The notes below the pieces were generated by a model. The model was not told the DNA's origin, made no database searches, and saw only the letters and a program-made list of their open reading frames with translations. From Weeksellaceae bacterium (lineage in GTDB: Bacteria; Bacteroidota; Bacteroidia; Flavobacteriales; Weeksellaceae), in assembly GCA_019459455.1 (NCBI GenBank), contig JAIBEX010000009.1, positions 1 to 64,000 on the forward strand: a DNA stretch of 64,000 nt. Reading direction: 5' to 3'. Position 1 is the first letter of the stretch. The number at the start of each line of letters is the position of its first letter. Positions 14,634 to 44,795 of the stretch are shown in pieces. The translations under genes were made by a program, and so were the position numbers.

Positions 14634-16082
14634 ATGTCTACAAATTATTCGAAACAAACCAACTGGGGGCAGTTCGTGCCGTTGGTTACCGTATTTTTCT
14701 TTTGGGGATTTGTTGCAGCGAGCAACGATATTTTAATCCCGGTTTTCAAAAAAGCATTCAACCTGACACAGGGGCAAAGCCAACTGGTTTCCATGGCTTT
14801 TTATGTAGCCTATACCGTAGGGTCGTTGATTTATATGTTTATTTCAAAAACACTGAAGCAGGATTTGGTAAACAGGATTGGTTATAAGAATGGTTTAATA
14901 GTAGGACTTCTCATTTCCGCCGCCGGAACCCTGCTCTTTTACCCTGCCGCAAATATGGGATCTTTCCCACTGATGCTTTCAGGTTTGTTTATTGTTGGGC
15001 TGGGGTTTTCACTGCAGCAAATTGTGGCAAATCCACTTGCAATTGAGGTCGGGCCTACAGAAACAGGATCACAGCGGTTAACAATGGCTGGAGGAATCAA
15101 TAATTTCGGGACCACCATAGGACCCCTGATCGTATCTTTTGCTATTTTCGGGTCTGCAACAGCATCCAATACCGAAGCCAGTATAGAATCCGTGAAGGTC
15201 CCCTATCTTGTTTTGGGAGCAGCTTTCCTTTTGGTAGCTCTGCTGCTTAAATTTTCTTCTTTACCACAGATTACACCTACCATTACAGAAGATACCGATG
15301 ATGATGTTCCGGGTGAACACCGGGATTCTGCTTTAAAGTATCCACAACTGGTTTTGGGGATGATCGCTATTTTCGTTTATGTGGGTGTGGAAGTTTCGAC
15401 TGCCAGTAATTTACCGGCATATATGGAGAAATCACTTGGCTTTGAAACGAAAGATATTGCACCCTATGTTTCCCTGTATTGGGCATCACTGATGATTGGC
15501 CGTTGGACCGGAGCTGTTGATGCTTTCGATATAAGTGCTGGATTCAAGAAGATTTTAAGGTTTCTGGCTCCCTATCTCGCTTTCGGAGTATTCCTTCTTG
15601 TCAATGCCATTGCACAGCATGATCTGTCGCATTTCTATATTTACGGTTTAATCATCCTTGTAATGATTGCCTGCGACATCATGAGTAAAGGAAATCCGGC
15701 GAGGATGTTACTGATCTTCTCCTGTATGGGTATTCTGGCTCTGGTCGTTGGAATGCTTACCTCAGGGATGACCTCAGTCTATGCGTTCACCAGTGTGGGT
15801 TTATTCTGCTCCACCCTATGGCCATGTATTTTTGCGTTGGCGATAAACGGATTGGGGAAACACACCAATCAGGGTTCCGGCTATCTCATCATGATGATTA
15901 TGGGAGGTGGGATTATTTCGTGGCTGCAGGGCATGCTTGCGGATATGACCAACATCCATTTCAGTTATATTGTAGGTGTTCTATGCTTCGCTTATCTGGT
16001 TTTTTACGCCGTTCGGGTAACCGGAATACTGAAAGCGCAGGGCATCAGTCTCGATCAGGTTAAATCGGGAGGTGGGCACTAA
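14634..16082 (+). CDS. MFS sugar transporter, FucP/GluP (FHS) family
   Basis: Proton-coupled sugar uptake protein with about 12 transmembrane helices over 482 residues. The opening FVPLVTVFFFWGFVAASNDILIP and the ANPLAIEVGPTETGSQRLTMAGGINNFGTTIGP segment in the first half are characteristic of the fucose/glucose-galactose/N-acetylglucosamine permease group of the major facilitator superfamily. Which sugar it carries cannot be told from sequence alone. The kinase-like gene at 11975 on the other strand could act on an imported amino sugar, but this is speculative. The reading frame ends 11 nt inside the next gene. Confidence 0.9.
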   Translation: MSTNYSKQTNWGQFVPLVTVFFFWGFVAASNDILIPVFKKAFNLTQGQSQLVSMAFYVAYTVGSLIYMFISKTLKQDLVNRIGYKNGLIVGLLISAAGTLLFYPAANMGSFPLMLSGLFIVGLGFSLQQIVANPLAIEVGPTETGSQRLTMAGGINNFGTTIGPLIVSFAIFGSATASNTEASIESVKVPYLVLGAAFLLVALLLKFSSLPQITPTITEDTDDDVPGEHRDSALKYPQLVLGMIAIFVYVGVEVSTASNLPAYMEKSLGFETKDIAPYVSLYWASLMIGRWTGAVDAFDISAGFKKILRFLAPYLAFGVFLLVNAIAQHDLSHFYIYGLIILVMIACDIMSKGNPARMLLIFSCMGILALVVGMLTSGMTSVYAFTSVGLFCSTLWPCIFALAINGLGKHTNQGSGYLIMMIMGGGIISWLQGMLADMTNIHFSYIVGVLCFAYLVFYAVRVTGILKAQGISLDQVKSGGGH

Positions 16083-17130
16083 ATTAACTCACATATTAAA
16101 AAAGAAGAGGTTTTGGGCAGGTGTTTTACTTGTCCAATTTCTTTTGTTTTTTCTTCTTTCCAGAATCGGGTTTATGGGAATATTTGAAAGGTTTTTTGAG
16201 GTCCGGAAAGAATTCCATCAATCATTATTTCAAGACCTCAGTTTTTCAGCAGGCGATGTTCTGTACGTTTTGCTGTTACTCTATATACTTATTCTAGTTG
16301 CTAAAATATTACGAAACAAAACGAGGCACTCGGCGTTAGTTTCATTTCTTGTACTGTTGAATATCCTATATCTTACCTATCAGCTGTTTTGGGGAATGCT
16401 ATACTTTCAACAACCCGTGAGTGAAAAACTTCCTGAAGGTAAAACATCCCCGGCAGCGATCAAACAATTGGCCTTTAAATACCTTGACCGCTGCACCGAG
16501 ACCCGTAAACTGGTGCAGGAGGACAGGAATGGGGTTTTTAAAGTGTATGACATTCATAAAATTCAAACAGAAATTCTGGCGAACCAGACCAAAATCCCCC
16601 GATTCATAAATCAAAAAAAAACAACGAATGTTAATTCTATCAAACCCAGTTTGTACACGGGTATCATGAGCTACACCGGTATTATGGGATATTACAATCC
16701 ATTTACAGCGGAAGCGCTGTACAATCCCAAACTCCCGTCCACTTACCTACCTTTTACTTTGGCTCACGAGAGCGCGCACCAGTTGGGATATGCACGGGAA
16801 CAGGAGGCCAATTTCATAGGTTTTTTGTTGGGAAAGAATGCGGAAAATCCGGACTTGAGATACAGCACGGAATATTTTGCGTTGAAATCGCTTTTGAACG
16901 CCCTGGTGGAATCTGAACCGGAGTTTGTAAAGGGTGTCATAAGAAAATATCCAGTACAGATGAAACGCGACCGCCTGGCCGAAAAGATGTTCGTAAAAAG
17001 ACATTCGGGAATGCTGGAGGTGTTTTTCGGGTTTACCAATGACCTGTTTCTTAAATCAAACCAGCAGGATGGAACGATCACCTATTCCTACTTTGTGGAT
17101 TTACTAGTGCGTCATGAGAAAATGGAGTAA
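16072..17130 (+). CDS. DUF3810 family membrane protein with zinc-peptidase-like motif
   Basis: A 352-residue protein with three hydrophobic helices near the N-terminus (about 14-34, 62-81 and 90-108) and a soluble C-terminal part. It matches the DUF3810 family of Bacteroidota. Residues 232-236 read HESAH, an HExxH zinc-binding motif, followed after a short gap by EQEANFIGF, which could give the third (Glu) ligand, so a membrane-bound metallopeptidase activity is likely but unproven. It starts with GTG at 16072, overlapping the transporter stop by 11 nt, which points to translational coupling. It ends just before a minus-strand terminator. Confidence 0.85.
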   Translation: MGTKLTHILKKKRFWAGVLLVQFLLFFLLSRIGFMGIFERFFEVRKEFHQSLFQDLSFSAGDVLYVLLLLYILILVAKILRNKTRHSALVSFLVLLNILYLTYQLFWGMLYFQQPVSEKLPEGKTSPAAIKQLAFKYLDRCTETRKLVQEDRNGVFKVYDIHKIQTEILANQTKIPRFINQKKTTNVNSIKPSLYTGIMSYTGIMGYYNPFTAEALYNPKLPSTYLPFTLAHESAHQLGYAREQEANFIGFLLGKNAENPDLRYSTEYFALKSLLNALVESEPEFVKGVIRKYPVQMKRDRLAEKMFVKRHSGMLEVFFGFTNDLFLKSNQQDGTITYSYFVDLLVRHEKME

Positions 17131-17135
17131 ATAAA

Positions 17136-17244
17136 GAAAAAAAAAGAACCGCAACTTGCGAAGCGGTTCTAAAAACACAAATGATGAAAAAAAATTTATT
17201 GCCTCTTCGGACAGCATTACCATCCTTAAAGCGATGTAAAAGTA
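17136..17244 (-). ncRNA. Candidate small RNA, copy 1 (about 90 nt, own promoter and terminator)
   Basis: On the minus strand a promoter TTG (17266-17264)-N19-TACTTTTA (17244-17237, one mismatch to TAnnTTTG) is followed by a 27-nt AT-rich block at 17197-17171 and a terminator hairpin AGAACCGC/GCGGTTCT (17170-17145) with a T run. The 27-nt block is identical to one at 43407-43433, also directly in front of a terminator of different sequence. No gene in the same direction lies downstream, since DUF3810 is convergent, so this is probably a free-standing RNA. An 8-residue Phe-rich reading of the block (NFFSSFVF) exists but is explained by the T run. Confidence 0.5.
17145..17170 (-). terminator. 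Rho-independent terminator of the candidate small RNA
   Basis: Eight-base-pair stem AGAACCGC/GCGGTTCT with a 10-nt loop; on the minus strand the hairpin is followed by a T run (complement of 17136-17144). It is also the end point for the convergent DUF3810 transcript. Confidence 0.75.
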
Positions 17245-17395
17245 GCATTATTTCCTGAACTTGCAAACTTTTACCAAGTAATTTTTACTGTTGTTTAATA
17301 CCGCCTTAGCTATCAACAGGATATATTTAATTTTTTTTGTCCGGAGAGATTAATCACACAACCTACTCTAATATTTAAATGCATTTCGTATCAAC

Positions 17396-40678: not shown

Positions 40679-40709
40679 TTGATAAAGGTATTAGGAATTC
40701 GTAAATTTG
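40679..40709 (+). promoter_or_regulatory. Promoter of clpB
   Basis: TTG (40679-40681), 20-nt spacer, TAAATTTG (40702-40709): a good Bacteroidota promoter. Transcription would start near 40716, leaving a 5' leader of about 45 nt before the ATG at 40760. The first in-frame start-like codon of the reading frame, at 40679, is inside this promoter and is not used. Confidence 0.75.
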
Positions 40710-40759
40710 TATGGGTTCCTACTATTTTTCAAAAACTGAAAACCGAAAATCACCTTAAT

Positions 40760-43351
40760 ATGAACTTAAATCAATATACCGTAAAATCGCAGGAGGCCAT
40801 CCAGAAAGCGCAGCAGATTGCAATGGAATTTGGCAACCAAAGCATTGAACCTCAACATTTACTTGAAGGAATTTTCCAGACAGATGAAAATATATCGGAT
40901 TTCCTCCTGAAGAAATCTGAAGCGGAACTCTCGCTGGTGCGGGAGAGGAACCGTTCAAACATCGAAAAACTTCCGAAAGTGGAAGGCGGTAACGTGTACC
41001 TGTCGCAGTCCGCGAATAAGGTACTGCTGGACGCACCCAACATCGCCAAGAAGATGGGTGATGAATATGTAACGATAGAACACCTGTGGCTCTCTCTTCT
41101 GGAGAGTGGTTCTGAAGTATCAAAGATGCTCAAGGATATGGGCATCACCAAAAAAGGCCTGGAATCAGCCATTAATGAACTCAGGAAAGGATCAAAGGCC
41201 ACCTCAGCCAGCTCTGAAGAAACCTACCAGAGTCTGAACAAATACGCGAAGAACTTCAATGAACTCGCTGCCGAGGGCAAACTTGACCCTGTAATCGGCC
41301 GTGATGAAGAAATCCGCAGGGTGCTGCAAATCCTTTCCAGAAGAACTAAAAACAACCCCATCCTTATCGGTGAGCCCGGTGTGGGAAAAACCGCGATTGC
41401 TGAAGGAATCGCCCACCGGATCATCTCGGGCGATATTCCGGAGAACCTGATGGACAAAACCCTTTACTCTCTTGACATGGGCGCATTGATTGCAGGAGCG
41501 AAATATAAAGGGGAGTTCGAGGAAAGACTGAAATCCGTCATCAACGAAGTCATTAAATCAGATGGCCAAATCATCCTGTTTATTGACGAGATCCACACCC
41601 TGGTGGGCGCCGGTGGTGGCGAGGGCGCCATGGATGCTGCAAATATACTGAAGCCGGCTCTGGCAAGAGGCGAACTGCGGGCAATTGGAGCTACGACGCT
41701 GAATGAATACCAGAAATATTTTGAGAAGGATAAGGCCCTCGAAAGACGGTTCCAGAAAGTAATGGTGGAAGAGCCGGACACCGAATCGGCAATTTCCATT
41801 CTGCGGGGAATTAAAGATAAATACGAGGCTCATCATAAAGTTAGAATAAAAGATGAGGCAATCATTGCAGCGGTGGAACAGTCGCAGCGGTATATTTCCG
41901 ACCGGTTTTTACCTGATAAAGCCATTGACCTAATTGATGAGGCATCCGCCAAACTGAGAATGGAAATCAATTCCAAACCCGAACAGCTGGATGTACTGGA
42001 CCGCAAACTGATGCAGATGGAGATTGAACTTGCCGCAATTTCCAGAGAAGGCAACGAAGTGAAGATCAACCACCTGAAAGAAGACATTTCAAAGCTTTCA
42101 GAACAGCGTAACGAAATCAATGCGAAGTGGCTGAAGGAAAAACAGAAATCGGAAGACTTAACAACGATCAAAAAAGATATTGAAGCCCTTAAACTGGAAG
42201 CCGAGCGGGCCTCCAGAGCAGGAGATTACGCAAAGGTTGCTGAGATCCAGTACGGAAAGATAAAAGAGAAGGAAAATGATCTGGAGAAACTCGAACTCGA
42301 GATGCAGAATAATCAGAACGAGCTGATTAAAGAAGAGGTGACCGCTGAAAATATTTCCGAGGTCATTTCAAAATGGACCGGAATTCCTGTGACCAAACTG
42401 CTGCAGAGCGAAAGGGAAAAACTCCTGCATTTGGAAGACGAGCTGCACAAAAGAGTGGTCGGCCAGGATGAAGCCATCGTATCCATTGCTGATGCAATAC
42501 GCAGAAACAGGGCGGGTCTGAACGATGAAAAGAAACCCATTGGATCCTTTCTCTTCCTCGGAACCACCGGCGTGGGGAAGACCGAGCTCGCAAAAGCACT
42601 CGCTGAATACCTTTTTGACGATGAAAATAACATGACCAGGATTGACATGAGCGAATACCAGGAAAGACATTCGGTGTCCAGACTGGTTGGTGCTCCCCCG
42701 GGATACGTAGGGTATGATGAAGGCGGCCAGCTGACGGAAGCGGTAAGGAGACGGCCCTACTCTGTCGTCCTTTTGGATGAGATTGAAAAGGCCCATCCGG
42801 ATGTATTCAATACCCTGCTGCAGGTTCTGGATGACGGCCGACTGACAGATAACAAAGGAAGAATGGTGAATTTCAAGAATTCGATCATCATCATGACTTC
42901 CAATCTGGGCTCACATTTAATCCAGGAGAATTTTGAAAAGATAACAGATGAAAATGTTGAAGCAATTGTAGATAAAACCAAAGACGAAGTTTTCACCTTA
43001 CTGAAGCAAACTTTAAGACCTGAATTCCTGAACCGGATTGATGAAGTCGTCCTTTTCCAGCCTTTGAACAGAAAGGAAATAGGGAAGATTGTACATTACC
43101 AGCTTCGCGGTTTCAACAAAATGCTGGCGAAAAAGGGAATCATTCTTACTGCTACGGAAGACGCAATCAACTACCTTATGAACAAAGGATATGACCCCAG
43201 TTTTGGTGCGCGGCCGCTGAAAAGGGTGCTTCAACAGGAAGTTCTTAATAAATTGTCAAAAGAAATCCTTGCCGGTAATGTGAATGACGGGGACCGGATT
43301 ACCCTGGACTATTTTGAGGAAAGCGGACTTGTATTCCGTCCCACAGACTAG
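40760..43351 (+). CDS. clpB: ATP-dependent chaperone ClpB
   Basis: AAA+ disaggregase (863 residues) that works with DnaK to rescue aggregated proteins. It starts [26 protein letters not shown], the Clp N domain. NBD1 has Walker [10 protein letters not shown] and Walker [16 protein letters not shown]; the middle coiled-coil domain (about 405-530) is present, which separates it from ClpA; NBD2 has GTTGVGKTE and [14 protein letters not shown]. The ATG at 40760 is chosen because the upstream extension lies in the promoter. No heat-shock partner genes are adjacent. The next feature downstream is a candidate small RNA. Confidence 0.97.
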
Positions 43352-43384
43352 TGAACTTTAACTTCTATTAACAAATAACAGCAC

Positions 43385-43468
43385 GATATTTGCGTTATAG
43401 CATTGAAAATTTTTTTTCATCATTTGTGTTTTTTAGAATCCGTTGATTTATCAACGGATTCTTTTTTT
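43385..43468 (+). ncRNA. Candidate small RNA, copy 2
   Basis: The 27-nt block AAATTTTTTTTCATCATTTG... at 43407-43433 is identical to the one in copy 1 (17197-17171, minus strand) and is again followed at once by AGAA and a terminator hairpin (43435-43468). A possible -7 element GATATTTG (43385-43392, one mismatch) gives a start near 43399 and an RNA of about 70 nt. It could also be the 3' end of the clpB transcript, since clpB stops at 43351. Confidence 0.45.
43435..43468 (+). terminator. Terminator of the candidate small RNA / clpB
   Basis: Twelve-base-pair stem AGAATCCGTTGA/TCAACGGATTCT with loop TTTA, followed by seven T residues. The stretch from there to 43740 is AT-rich and shows no further feature. 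Confidence 0.9.
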
Positions 43469-43748: not shown

Positions 43749-43779
43749 TTGCACAGTAATTTTGAACTGTATAAATTCG
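43749..43779 (+). promoter_or_regulatory. Promoter of the M43 metalloprotease gene
   Basis: TTG (43749-43751), 20-nt spacer, TAAATTCG (43772-43779; one mismatch to TAnnTTTG), 30 nt before the ATG at 43809. Confidence 0.5.
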
Positions 43780-43808
43780 TTCTCCTAATATTAAATATCG
43801 AGAATAAT

Positions 43809-44795
43809 ATGAAAAAACTGTTTATTGGTGCATTTGCTCTGACTATGCTTGCCGCATGTAATACGAATGAGGAAAATCTGGTCACTCCGGACGAAACTGA
43901 ATCCTTATCTGCAGGGACTGCCGAACGCAGGAACTGTCCTTCTGAAGAAATCCGGAACACTGCCCTTCAAAACAGTCCGGAACTCATGGCGAAATATGTG
44001 GACATTGAAAACAAGACCAACAAGTTTGTACAGGACGCTTCTCTGGGCAGAGTCCTGGCAGATGGAACAGTTGAGATTCCGGTAGTGGTAAATGTCCTGT
44101 ACAGAACCGCTGCAGAAAATATTTCTGATGCTCAAATCGCATCTCAAATTGCTACTTTAAATAAAGATTTTGGCGGCACAAACGCGGATGTTAATCAAAT
44201 CCCTCAGGAGTTTGCCTCAGTGGCCGCCGGTGACACCAAAATAAAATTCCGTCTGGACCGTGTGGTACGGAAATCGACAACGGTGCGTTCCTGGAGAGCC
44301 AACGATGCAATGAAAAAGACATCCAGCAAAGGACAGAACGCTTTCGATCCGGCTCATTACTTCAATATTTGGGTAGTTGGCGATATGGGTGGCATCCTTG
44401 GATACGCTACATTCCCGGAGTCATCCGGACTTTGGAACGATGGTGTGGTGATTGCCGCAAAATATTTCGGAAACACCTCTTATGCACCGTATAATCTTGG
44501 AAGAACAGCGACGCATGAAGTTGGACACTACCTGAACCTTCGCCATATTTGGGGCGACGGCAACTGTGCCACCGATTATGTAGCCGATACGCCAACCCAG
44601 CAGGACAAGAATTTCGGAACTCCCTCCTACCCGCAGTATGACATTTGCGGTGGGGTAAGCCGCTCCATTCAGTTCATGAATTATATGGATTATGTGAATG
44701 ATTCTGCCATGTATATGTTCTCTGCAGGTCAGAAAACAAGGATGCAGGCGGTAACCGCAACCTCCGGACCAAGAGCCGGCCTGAGACTTTACTAA
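43809..44795 (+). CDS. M43 family (pappalysin-like) zinc metalloprotease, lipoprotein
   Basis: A 328-residue secreted metalloprotease of the cytophagalysin/ulilysin group. The signal peptide is lipoprotein-type (LAAC, cysteine at 17). The zinc motif HEVGHYLNLRH is at 236-246; the third-last position that is Gly in the metzincin consensus HExxHxxGxxH is Asn here. The Met-turn is MNYMDY at 290-295, and conserved cysteines surround it (GNCATDYVADTP, YDICGG). The C-terminus stops soon after the Met-turn and has no type IX secretion CTD, so it is probably exported by Sec and anchored by lipid. The ATG at 43809 follows from the signal peptide. Confidence 0.88.
   Translation: MKKLFIGAFALTMLAACNTNEENLVTPDETESLSAGTAERRNCPSEEIRNTALQNSPELMAKYVDIENKTNKFVQDASLGRVLADGTVEIPVVVNVLYRTAAENISDAQIASQIATLNKDFGGTNADVNQIPQEFASVAAGDTKIKFRLDRVVRKSTTVRSWRANDAMKKTSSKGQNAFDPAHYFNIWVVGDMGGILGYATFPESSGLWNDGVVIAAKYFGNTSYAPYNLGRTATHEVGHYLNLRHIWGDGNCATDYVADTPTQQDKNFGTPSYPQYDICGGVSRSIQFMNYMDYVNDSAMYMFSAGQKTRMQAVTATSGPRAGLRLY

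Follow-up and report, generated by a model that had tools for sequence, protein, structure and literature searches.

A candidate multicopy small RNA family with a nearly invariant core in Chryseobacterium-like bacteria

Does a short block that recurs in a bacterial contig, each time followed by a terminator hairpin, mark a small RNA, and if it does, how might such an RNA act? The question arises from the window analysed here, a stretch of 64,000 nt from a Weeksellaceae bacterium (assembly GCA_019459455.1, contig JAIBEX010000009.1), in which the 27-nt block AAATTTTTTTTCATCATTTGTGTTTTT occurs at 17171-17197 on the minus strand (copy 1) and at 43407-43433 on the plus strand (copy 2). The two occurrences lie about 26 kb apart and are identical at every position, as the initial annotation had observed. 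None of 100 dinucleotide shuffles gave a match to the block, even when as many as 3 mismatches were allowed, and the source genome holds a third copy outside the window (G000:C13:335100-335156, minus strand). From this recurrence and the comparisons across genomes set out below, we judge it very likely that a small RNA family exists.

Table 1. Positions in the window of the two copies, their parts and the genes beside them
Feature	Position	Strand	Basis
TTTG, upstream promoter element of copy 1	17264..17267	-	Sequence; alignment with other loci
TACTTTTA, TAnnTTTR -7 box of copy 1	17237..17244	-	Anchor of the promoter alignment
Predicted small RNA, copy 1, about 90 nt	17141..17232	-	Start inferred from promoter, end from terminator
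5' hairpin of copy 1	17201..17232	-	Predicted fold, -12.4 kcal/mol with flank
22-nt nearly invariant core TTTTTTCATCATTTGTGTTTTT, proposed seed	17171..17192	-	Block recurrence; family-wide conservation
Terminator hairpin of copy 1	17145..17170	-	T run after the hairpin, 17137-17144
DUF3810 gene, recurrent convergent neighbour of copy 1	16072..17130	+	PF12725, E 2.4e-75; synteny
Copy 2	43407..43462	+	Block 43407-43433 and terminator hairpin 43435-43462
clpB, 3' UTR holds copy 2	40679..43351	+	Pfam ClpB domains

In copy 1, read along the minus strand, TTTG and a 19-nt spacer precede TACTTTTA; next comes a hairpin, which AATAAATT separates from the core TTTTTTCATCATTTGTGTTTTT, and behind the core stand a terminator hairpin and a run of T (Table 1). 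The promoter with 19-nt spacing had been proposed from this locus at the outset, and its layout proved to be conserved in other loci. A promoter scan of the window did not list it, the consensus used being of the E. coli type, and the same scan gave only a shorter stem for the terminator. The sole minus-strand ORF listed across copy 1 is a mechanical 62-aa TTG ORF (17078-17266), in line with the original view that no coding gene runs in this direction. A covariance model matched both copy 1 (17141-17233, E 5.7e-14, copy 1 itself being among the model's sequences) and copy 2 (43376-43465, E 4e-7), and the terminator of copy 2 is built from other base pairs in the layout seen in copy 1, again as first described. 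What had to be revised is the reading of copy 2 as a unit with a promoter of its own: the distance from the end of clpB to the 17-nt centre of the block is 60 nt, and no TAnnTTTR box occurs within 75 nt upstream, so that copy 2 is better read as a copy carried in the clpB 3' UTR. A peptidase M43-domain gene follows copy 2 in the window (43749-44795, plus strand).

Both arrangements recur in related genomes. Of 116 copies, 72 have a TAnnTTTR box no further than 75 nt upstream, compared to 85 of 533 control windows. A long ORF on the same strand ends no more than 150 nt before 29 of the copies, and 17 of these lack the box; by the rule applied here, the remaining 27 have neither a promoter box nor a 3' UTR position. 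When 23 loci (21 beside DUF3810, together with L003 and L010) were aligned on the -7 box, 21 rows had T at -23 and 22 rows had it at -22, with TG or G coming next in most, and TTTG or a near variant stood 19 nt before the box in nearly all of them, L003 being without it. TTTG / TAnnTTTG is a promoter type known from Bacteroidota, and the predicted promoter of copy 1 fits this type. Among the neighbours, the initially noted tRNA-Met is not shown to be constant: it was found in 7 of 21 loci, with two of the seven representing one place, and some loci do not extend far enough for a decision. The recurrent neighbour is instead the DUF3810 gene. With regard to clpB, three genomes (G004, G035 and G012) have a copy about 57-69 nt behind the gene, and copies are also found further on, roughly 0.4-0.85 kb past the matched clpB stretch, in G053 and two Kaistella loci. 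In Kaistella (L170 and L186), two tandem copies share the strand of clpB and lie about 0.5-0.85 kb downstream of it.

Conservation was assessed at loci picked by the DUF3810 gene alone, regardless of the RNA, by reading the stretch behind the gene in 68 of 70 genomes. The 22-nt core was present on the opposite strand in 43 of these 68 genomes, representing 22 genera, with 38 exact cores, 4 with one substitution and none with two to five changes; G012 also carries the core. Compensatory changes were found at 9 of 11 terminator pairs (23 sequences from DUF3810-linked loci). In a cross-pairing test, which counts genera as independent and uses one locus for each of 21 genera (one N-containing locus was left out, and g11 is represented by the outer copy of a tandem pair), terminator arms paired better with their own partners than with those of other genera (-14.1 vs -6.9 kcal/mol, p 3e-5), and so did the arms of the 5' hairpin (mean -11.6 vs -6.5 kcal/mol, p 6.7e-6). 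Self-pairing of the 5' hairpin was better than 90% of crosses in 14 of the 21 genera; g30 has no such hairpin and g17 only a weak one. A near-fixed core between flanking hairpins that are re-paired from genus to genus is what the initial annotation had proposed in calling this a structured RNA family. RNAalifold found no common structure in the mixed set A2, probably owing to unequal terminator lengths, and the terminator alone in set A1, where the alignment had misplaced the 5' hairpins; for this reason z-scores and cross-pairing were used to test the 5' hairpin. Across 104 non-redundant copies, the 5' region had a mean z of -1.5 against shuffles, with 51 of the 104 below -1.5, and the core was predicted to be largely unpaired, the mean unpaired probability ranging from 0.49 to 0.82 per position. 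The 5' part otherwise varies freely among DUF3810-linked loci, which speaks against a conserved peptide. Together, a promoter of its own or a 3' UTR position, an intrinsic terminator and the lack of a conserved ORF are the features of a trans-acting small RNA.

We also asked how widely the element occurs. Of 296 genomes sampled from the bacterial family, 248 have the exact 17-mer at the centre of the block, TTTTTTCATCATTTGTG; these represent 23 of 33 genera, and a genome may hold as many as 11 copies. The reversed-pattern control gave one match, in G070. The block is not a common terminator. The 17-mer is absent from six genera for which several genomes were sampled (g9, g16, g18, g21, g28 and g29). 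Searching related genomes for a terminator next to the block, one of the checks suggested at the outset, gave an adjoining hairpin with a T-rich tail at 143 of 154 distinct sites, compared with 25 of 400 places picked at random in that set of loci, the sites having been made distinct by core and flank before terminators were counted; some of the 11 sites without one are start regions or coding matches. The covariance model that had likewise been suggested was built (R1) and run on the order with filters able to lose weak matches, and it matched 47 of 296 genomes, 45 of them in the bacterial family. The two matches outside it (E 0.0036 and 0.0012) were treated as chance, and three weak matches in other families (L054-L056) do not, on reading, look like copies. 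Named genomes scanned with a 21-mer yielded at least 118 stretches, and the titles among the matches listed were Chryseobacterium, Kaistella, Epilithonimonas, Halpernia, Elizabethkingia and Cloacibacterium, all of which we take to be Weeksellaceae genera, as well as 'Weeksellaceae bacterium' and one contig labelled Mycoplasmatales (L202), whose site has no adjoining terminator. From the covariance matches and the 17-mer and 21-mer distributions, this looks like a small RNA family confined to one bacterial family, that holding Chryseobacterium.

Copies also occur in unusual settings. One genome (G006) carries tandem arrays of six (L060) and two (L071) core-plus-terminator copies, about 105-317 nt apart and partly behind short ORFs with proline-rich ends. 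Among viral contigs, 34 distinct 17-mer sites were found, of which 5 pass the terminator rule, the other 29 having been judged by that rule alone; of the 5, only L223 has a T-rich flank, and this IMG/VR contig thus holds a copy with its terminator inside viral sequence (L223:11923-11939). Spread by phage or plasmid was considered for copy 1 and rejected, as it had no match in plasmid and phage records.

Is this a known RNA? Rfam searched against the window at gathering scores gave no match to the copies, and a relaxed search of the loci around the three own copies, with E as high as 1, returned nothing that could fit; besides tRNA, the relaxed matches (RefA9, GcvB and others) were far below gathering scores. 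Multicopy small RNAs with a pairing motif shared by several copies are known from Listeria (LhrC), an unrelated lineage that was compared by description only. The nearest known kind is FopS, the family of paralogous sRNAs of Bacteroides (RF04319), whose model matched 3 of 5 FopS-seed loci and none of the copies described here. These RNAs are reported to be multicopy, to combine an unpaired seed with a variable terminator, to include one 3' UTR-derived member and a phage copy, to bind the RRM protein RbpB and to repress translation by pairing with start regions (PMC11697453). The family here resembles FopS in that numerous paralogues share one seed and differ in their terminators. By our own reading, moreover, the FopS seed contains TTTTTCAT, the complement of ATGAAAAA, as does the core, and a TTTG and TAnnTTTG-type promoter is visible upstream of many FopS copies examined. 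The R1' seed of FopS begins GTGTTTTTCATAGTATTAG (PMC11697453), however, and shares with TTTTTTCATCATTTGTGTTTTT only short stretches such as TTTTTCAT. FopS has its seed in single-stranded 5' sequence, whereas in copy 1 the core is preceded by a 5' hairpin, and the targets of FopS, which belongs to another lineage, are SusC-like transporters rather than the csgE candidate introduced below. On these sequence comparisons, the putative family is not FopS by model or by seed, but has a similar plan. A flavobacterial small RNA, Rfp18 of Flavobacterium psychrophilum, is linked to metalloprotease expression; in a comparison by description only, its predicted pairing region lies in a third stem-loop, whereas the core here is predicted to be largely unpaired (PMC9723704). 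Among the matches listed from open-licence PMC papers on small RNAs of Chryseobacterium, Elizabethkingia, Riemerella and Weeksellaceae and on pieces of the core, no title describes the family, and this small RNA family of Chryseobacterium-like bacteria is apparently undescribed.

The core is the complement of AAAAACACAAATGATGAAAAAA, a start-codon region, and we explored whether start regions are candidate targets. In Chryseobacterium, the start of csgE, a curli-export gene of the curli operon, reads AAAACACARATGATGAAA or a close variant. The csgE start forms a duplex with the core of -17.3 kcal/mol or better at 16 of 19 loci picked by CsgE (Pfam CsgE) and taken to be Chryseobacterium, loci which share ancestry and are not 19 independent cases, the count being what is left of 24 after exclusion of 5 found via the seed-complementary pattern and being without four further genomes with CsgE (G129, G153, G192 and G193). 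Pairing is weaker in three Chryseobacterium (G156, G176 and G189), and outside the genus csgE showed none, the best of 24 loci reaching -9.6 kcal/mol; 7 of 55 loci had been dropped from the csgE set for want of a callable start. Changes at the csgE site are mostly wobble-compatible (A to G, C to T), to which we give little weight because these are also common mutations, and two species have an A to C mismatch. The source genome itself gave no CsgE match and no convincing start-region site for the core. One 22-nt perfect start-region match was found (L137), at a locus that had been chosen for an exact match, and other exact or wobble matches fall at the starts of exported-looking proteins, an ADP-ribosylglycohydrolase and an HRDC-domain protein. 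The best-supported single target candidate is csgE.

A general preference for start regions was not borne out. At -12 kcal/mol, start regions were not enriched: 37 of 577 paired, as did 36 of 577 gene interiors, and the core was equalled by 28 of 60 shuffled seeds; the strong form of a global anti-start hypothesis was therefore rejected. Beyond -18 kcal/mol there were 3 start regions, one of which is L137, vs 0 gene interiors. With exact small RNA cores excluded, the seed-complementary pattern occurred in 187 of 296 genomes vs 13 for the reversed pattern, a control that ignores start-codon bias. Among the matches listed, 90 sites were classified, giving 17 start regions (at least 3 of them, L360, L393 and L441, lying inside longer reading frames), 11 sense sites before a terminator, 8 degenerate-looking small RNA copies and 54 in no class, a large share of the sense matches being coding coincidences or of unclear nature.

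Taken together, comparison points to an RNA that is made from its own promoter or from a host 3' UTR and ends in an intrinsic terminator of variable sequence; its core of about 22 nt is nearly invariant and predicted to be largely unpaired, and in the DUF3810-linked form a variable hairpin lies 5' of this core. As a seed, the core would pair with messages where AACACAA precedes a start codon (AAAAACACAAATGATGAAAA), and such pairing would block translation of a limited group of proteins, most of them exported, csgE of the Chryseobacterium curli operon being the best candidate; several copies could pool their dosage and respond to different triggers, for example heat shock via clpB. We consider this account of a multicopy, trans-acting family probable as a whole, and pairing with start regions likely, on balance, to be its mode of action. 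An RRM protein may assist: a search of the source genome for Hfq gave no match (control genomes matched in 5 of 14), and the genome encodes one RRM_1 protein of 115 aa. FopS and RbpB offer such an RRM-based setting (PMC11697453), which the source genome resembles.

In a rival account, the invariant core is a protein-binding site, U-rich and recognised by an RRM or cold-shock protein which it would titrate or load, base pairing being secondary. For a seed that serves many targets, an invariant core of 22 nt is long and more constant than required; it is U-rich and largely unpaired by prediction, the genome encodes one RRM_1 protein and gave no Hfq match, and start regions are not enriched overall. 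Against a protein site, the core can be read as complementary to a start region (ATGATGAAA, preceded by AACACAA), and csgE retains its match in most Chryseobacterium tested; we regard a protein site as possible but rather unlikely. It is improbable that the copies are cis elements, terminators or 3'-end stabilisers of the DUF3810 and clpB messages: they do lie just 3' of these genes (convergent to DUF3810, on the same strand as clpB), but the copy 1 hairpin has its T run on the minus strand only, DUF3810-side copies have their own promoter, and neighbours vary between copies whereas the core does not. Least probable of all is a mobile terminator-bearing repeat devoid of RNA function, which would explain many copies per genome, tandem arrays and copies in 3' UTRs but should decay, whereas copy 1 keeps one site in 22 genera with its core exact or one letter off, its hairpins compensated and its promoter conserved, and matches no plasmid or phage record.

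Under the preferred reading of a trans-acting RNA with a pairing core, Chryseobacterium, Kaistella, Epilithonimonas, Elizabethkingia and their relatives would possess a clear and testable conserved regulatory RNA without a match in Rfam 15, and a second multicopy anti-start family of Bacteroidota beside FopS would suggest a general control of exported proteins without Hfq. A more speculative extension, which we put forward tentatively, is a family-wide network without recognisable Hfq, in which one 22-nt anti-start core, almost constant over 22 genera and borne by promoter-driven and 3'-UTR-borne RNAs, links stress (clpB) to surface traits such as curli through csgE and is buffered by sense copies before terminators acting as sponges.

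Target-like sense sequence stands directly before an intrinsic terminator at L349 and, recurring between genomes, at L339/L341 and L368/L373/L424/L429; these could be sponge sites for the small RNA. The target-like 13-mer also lies inside two apparent recurrent reading frames, mostly with KNTND (L359, L370, L390, L402, L416 and L426; L361, L382, L401, L405 and L422), where it is probably a coding coincidence. Finally, at six loci (L026, L077, L194, L101, L179 and L103) copies follow shortly after the stop of an ORF ending in a motif such as GDPxxPPKK or G(S/T)NxxxxN, and these ORFs are possibly peptide-precursor genes with small RNAs in their 3' UTRs.
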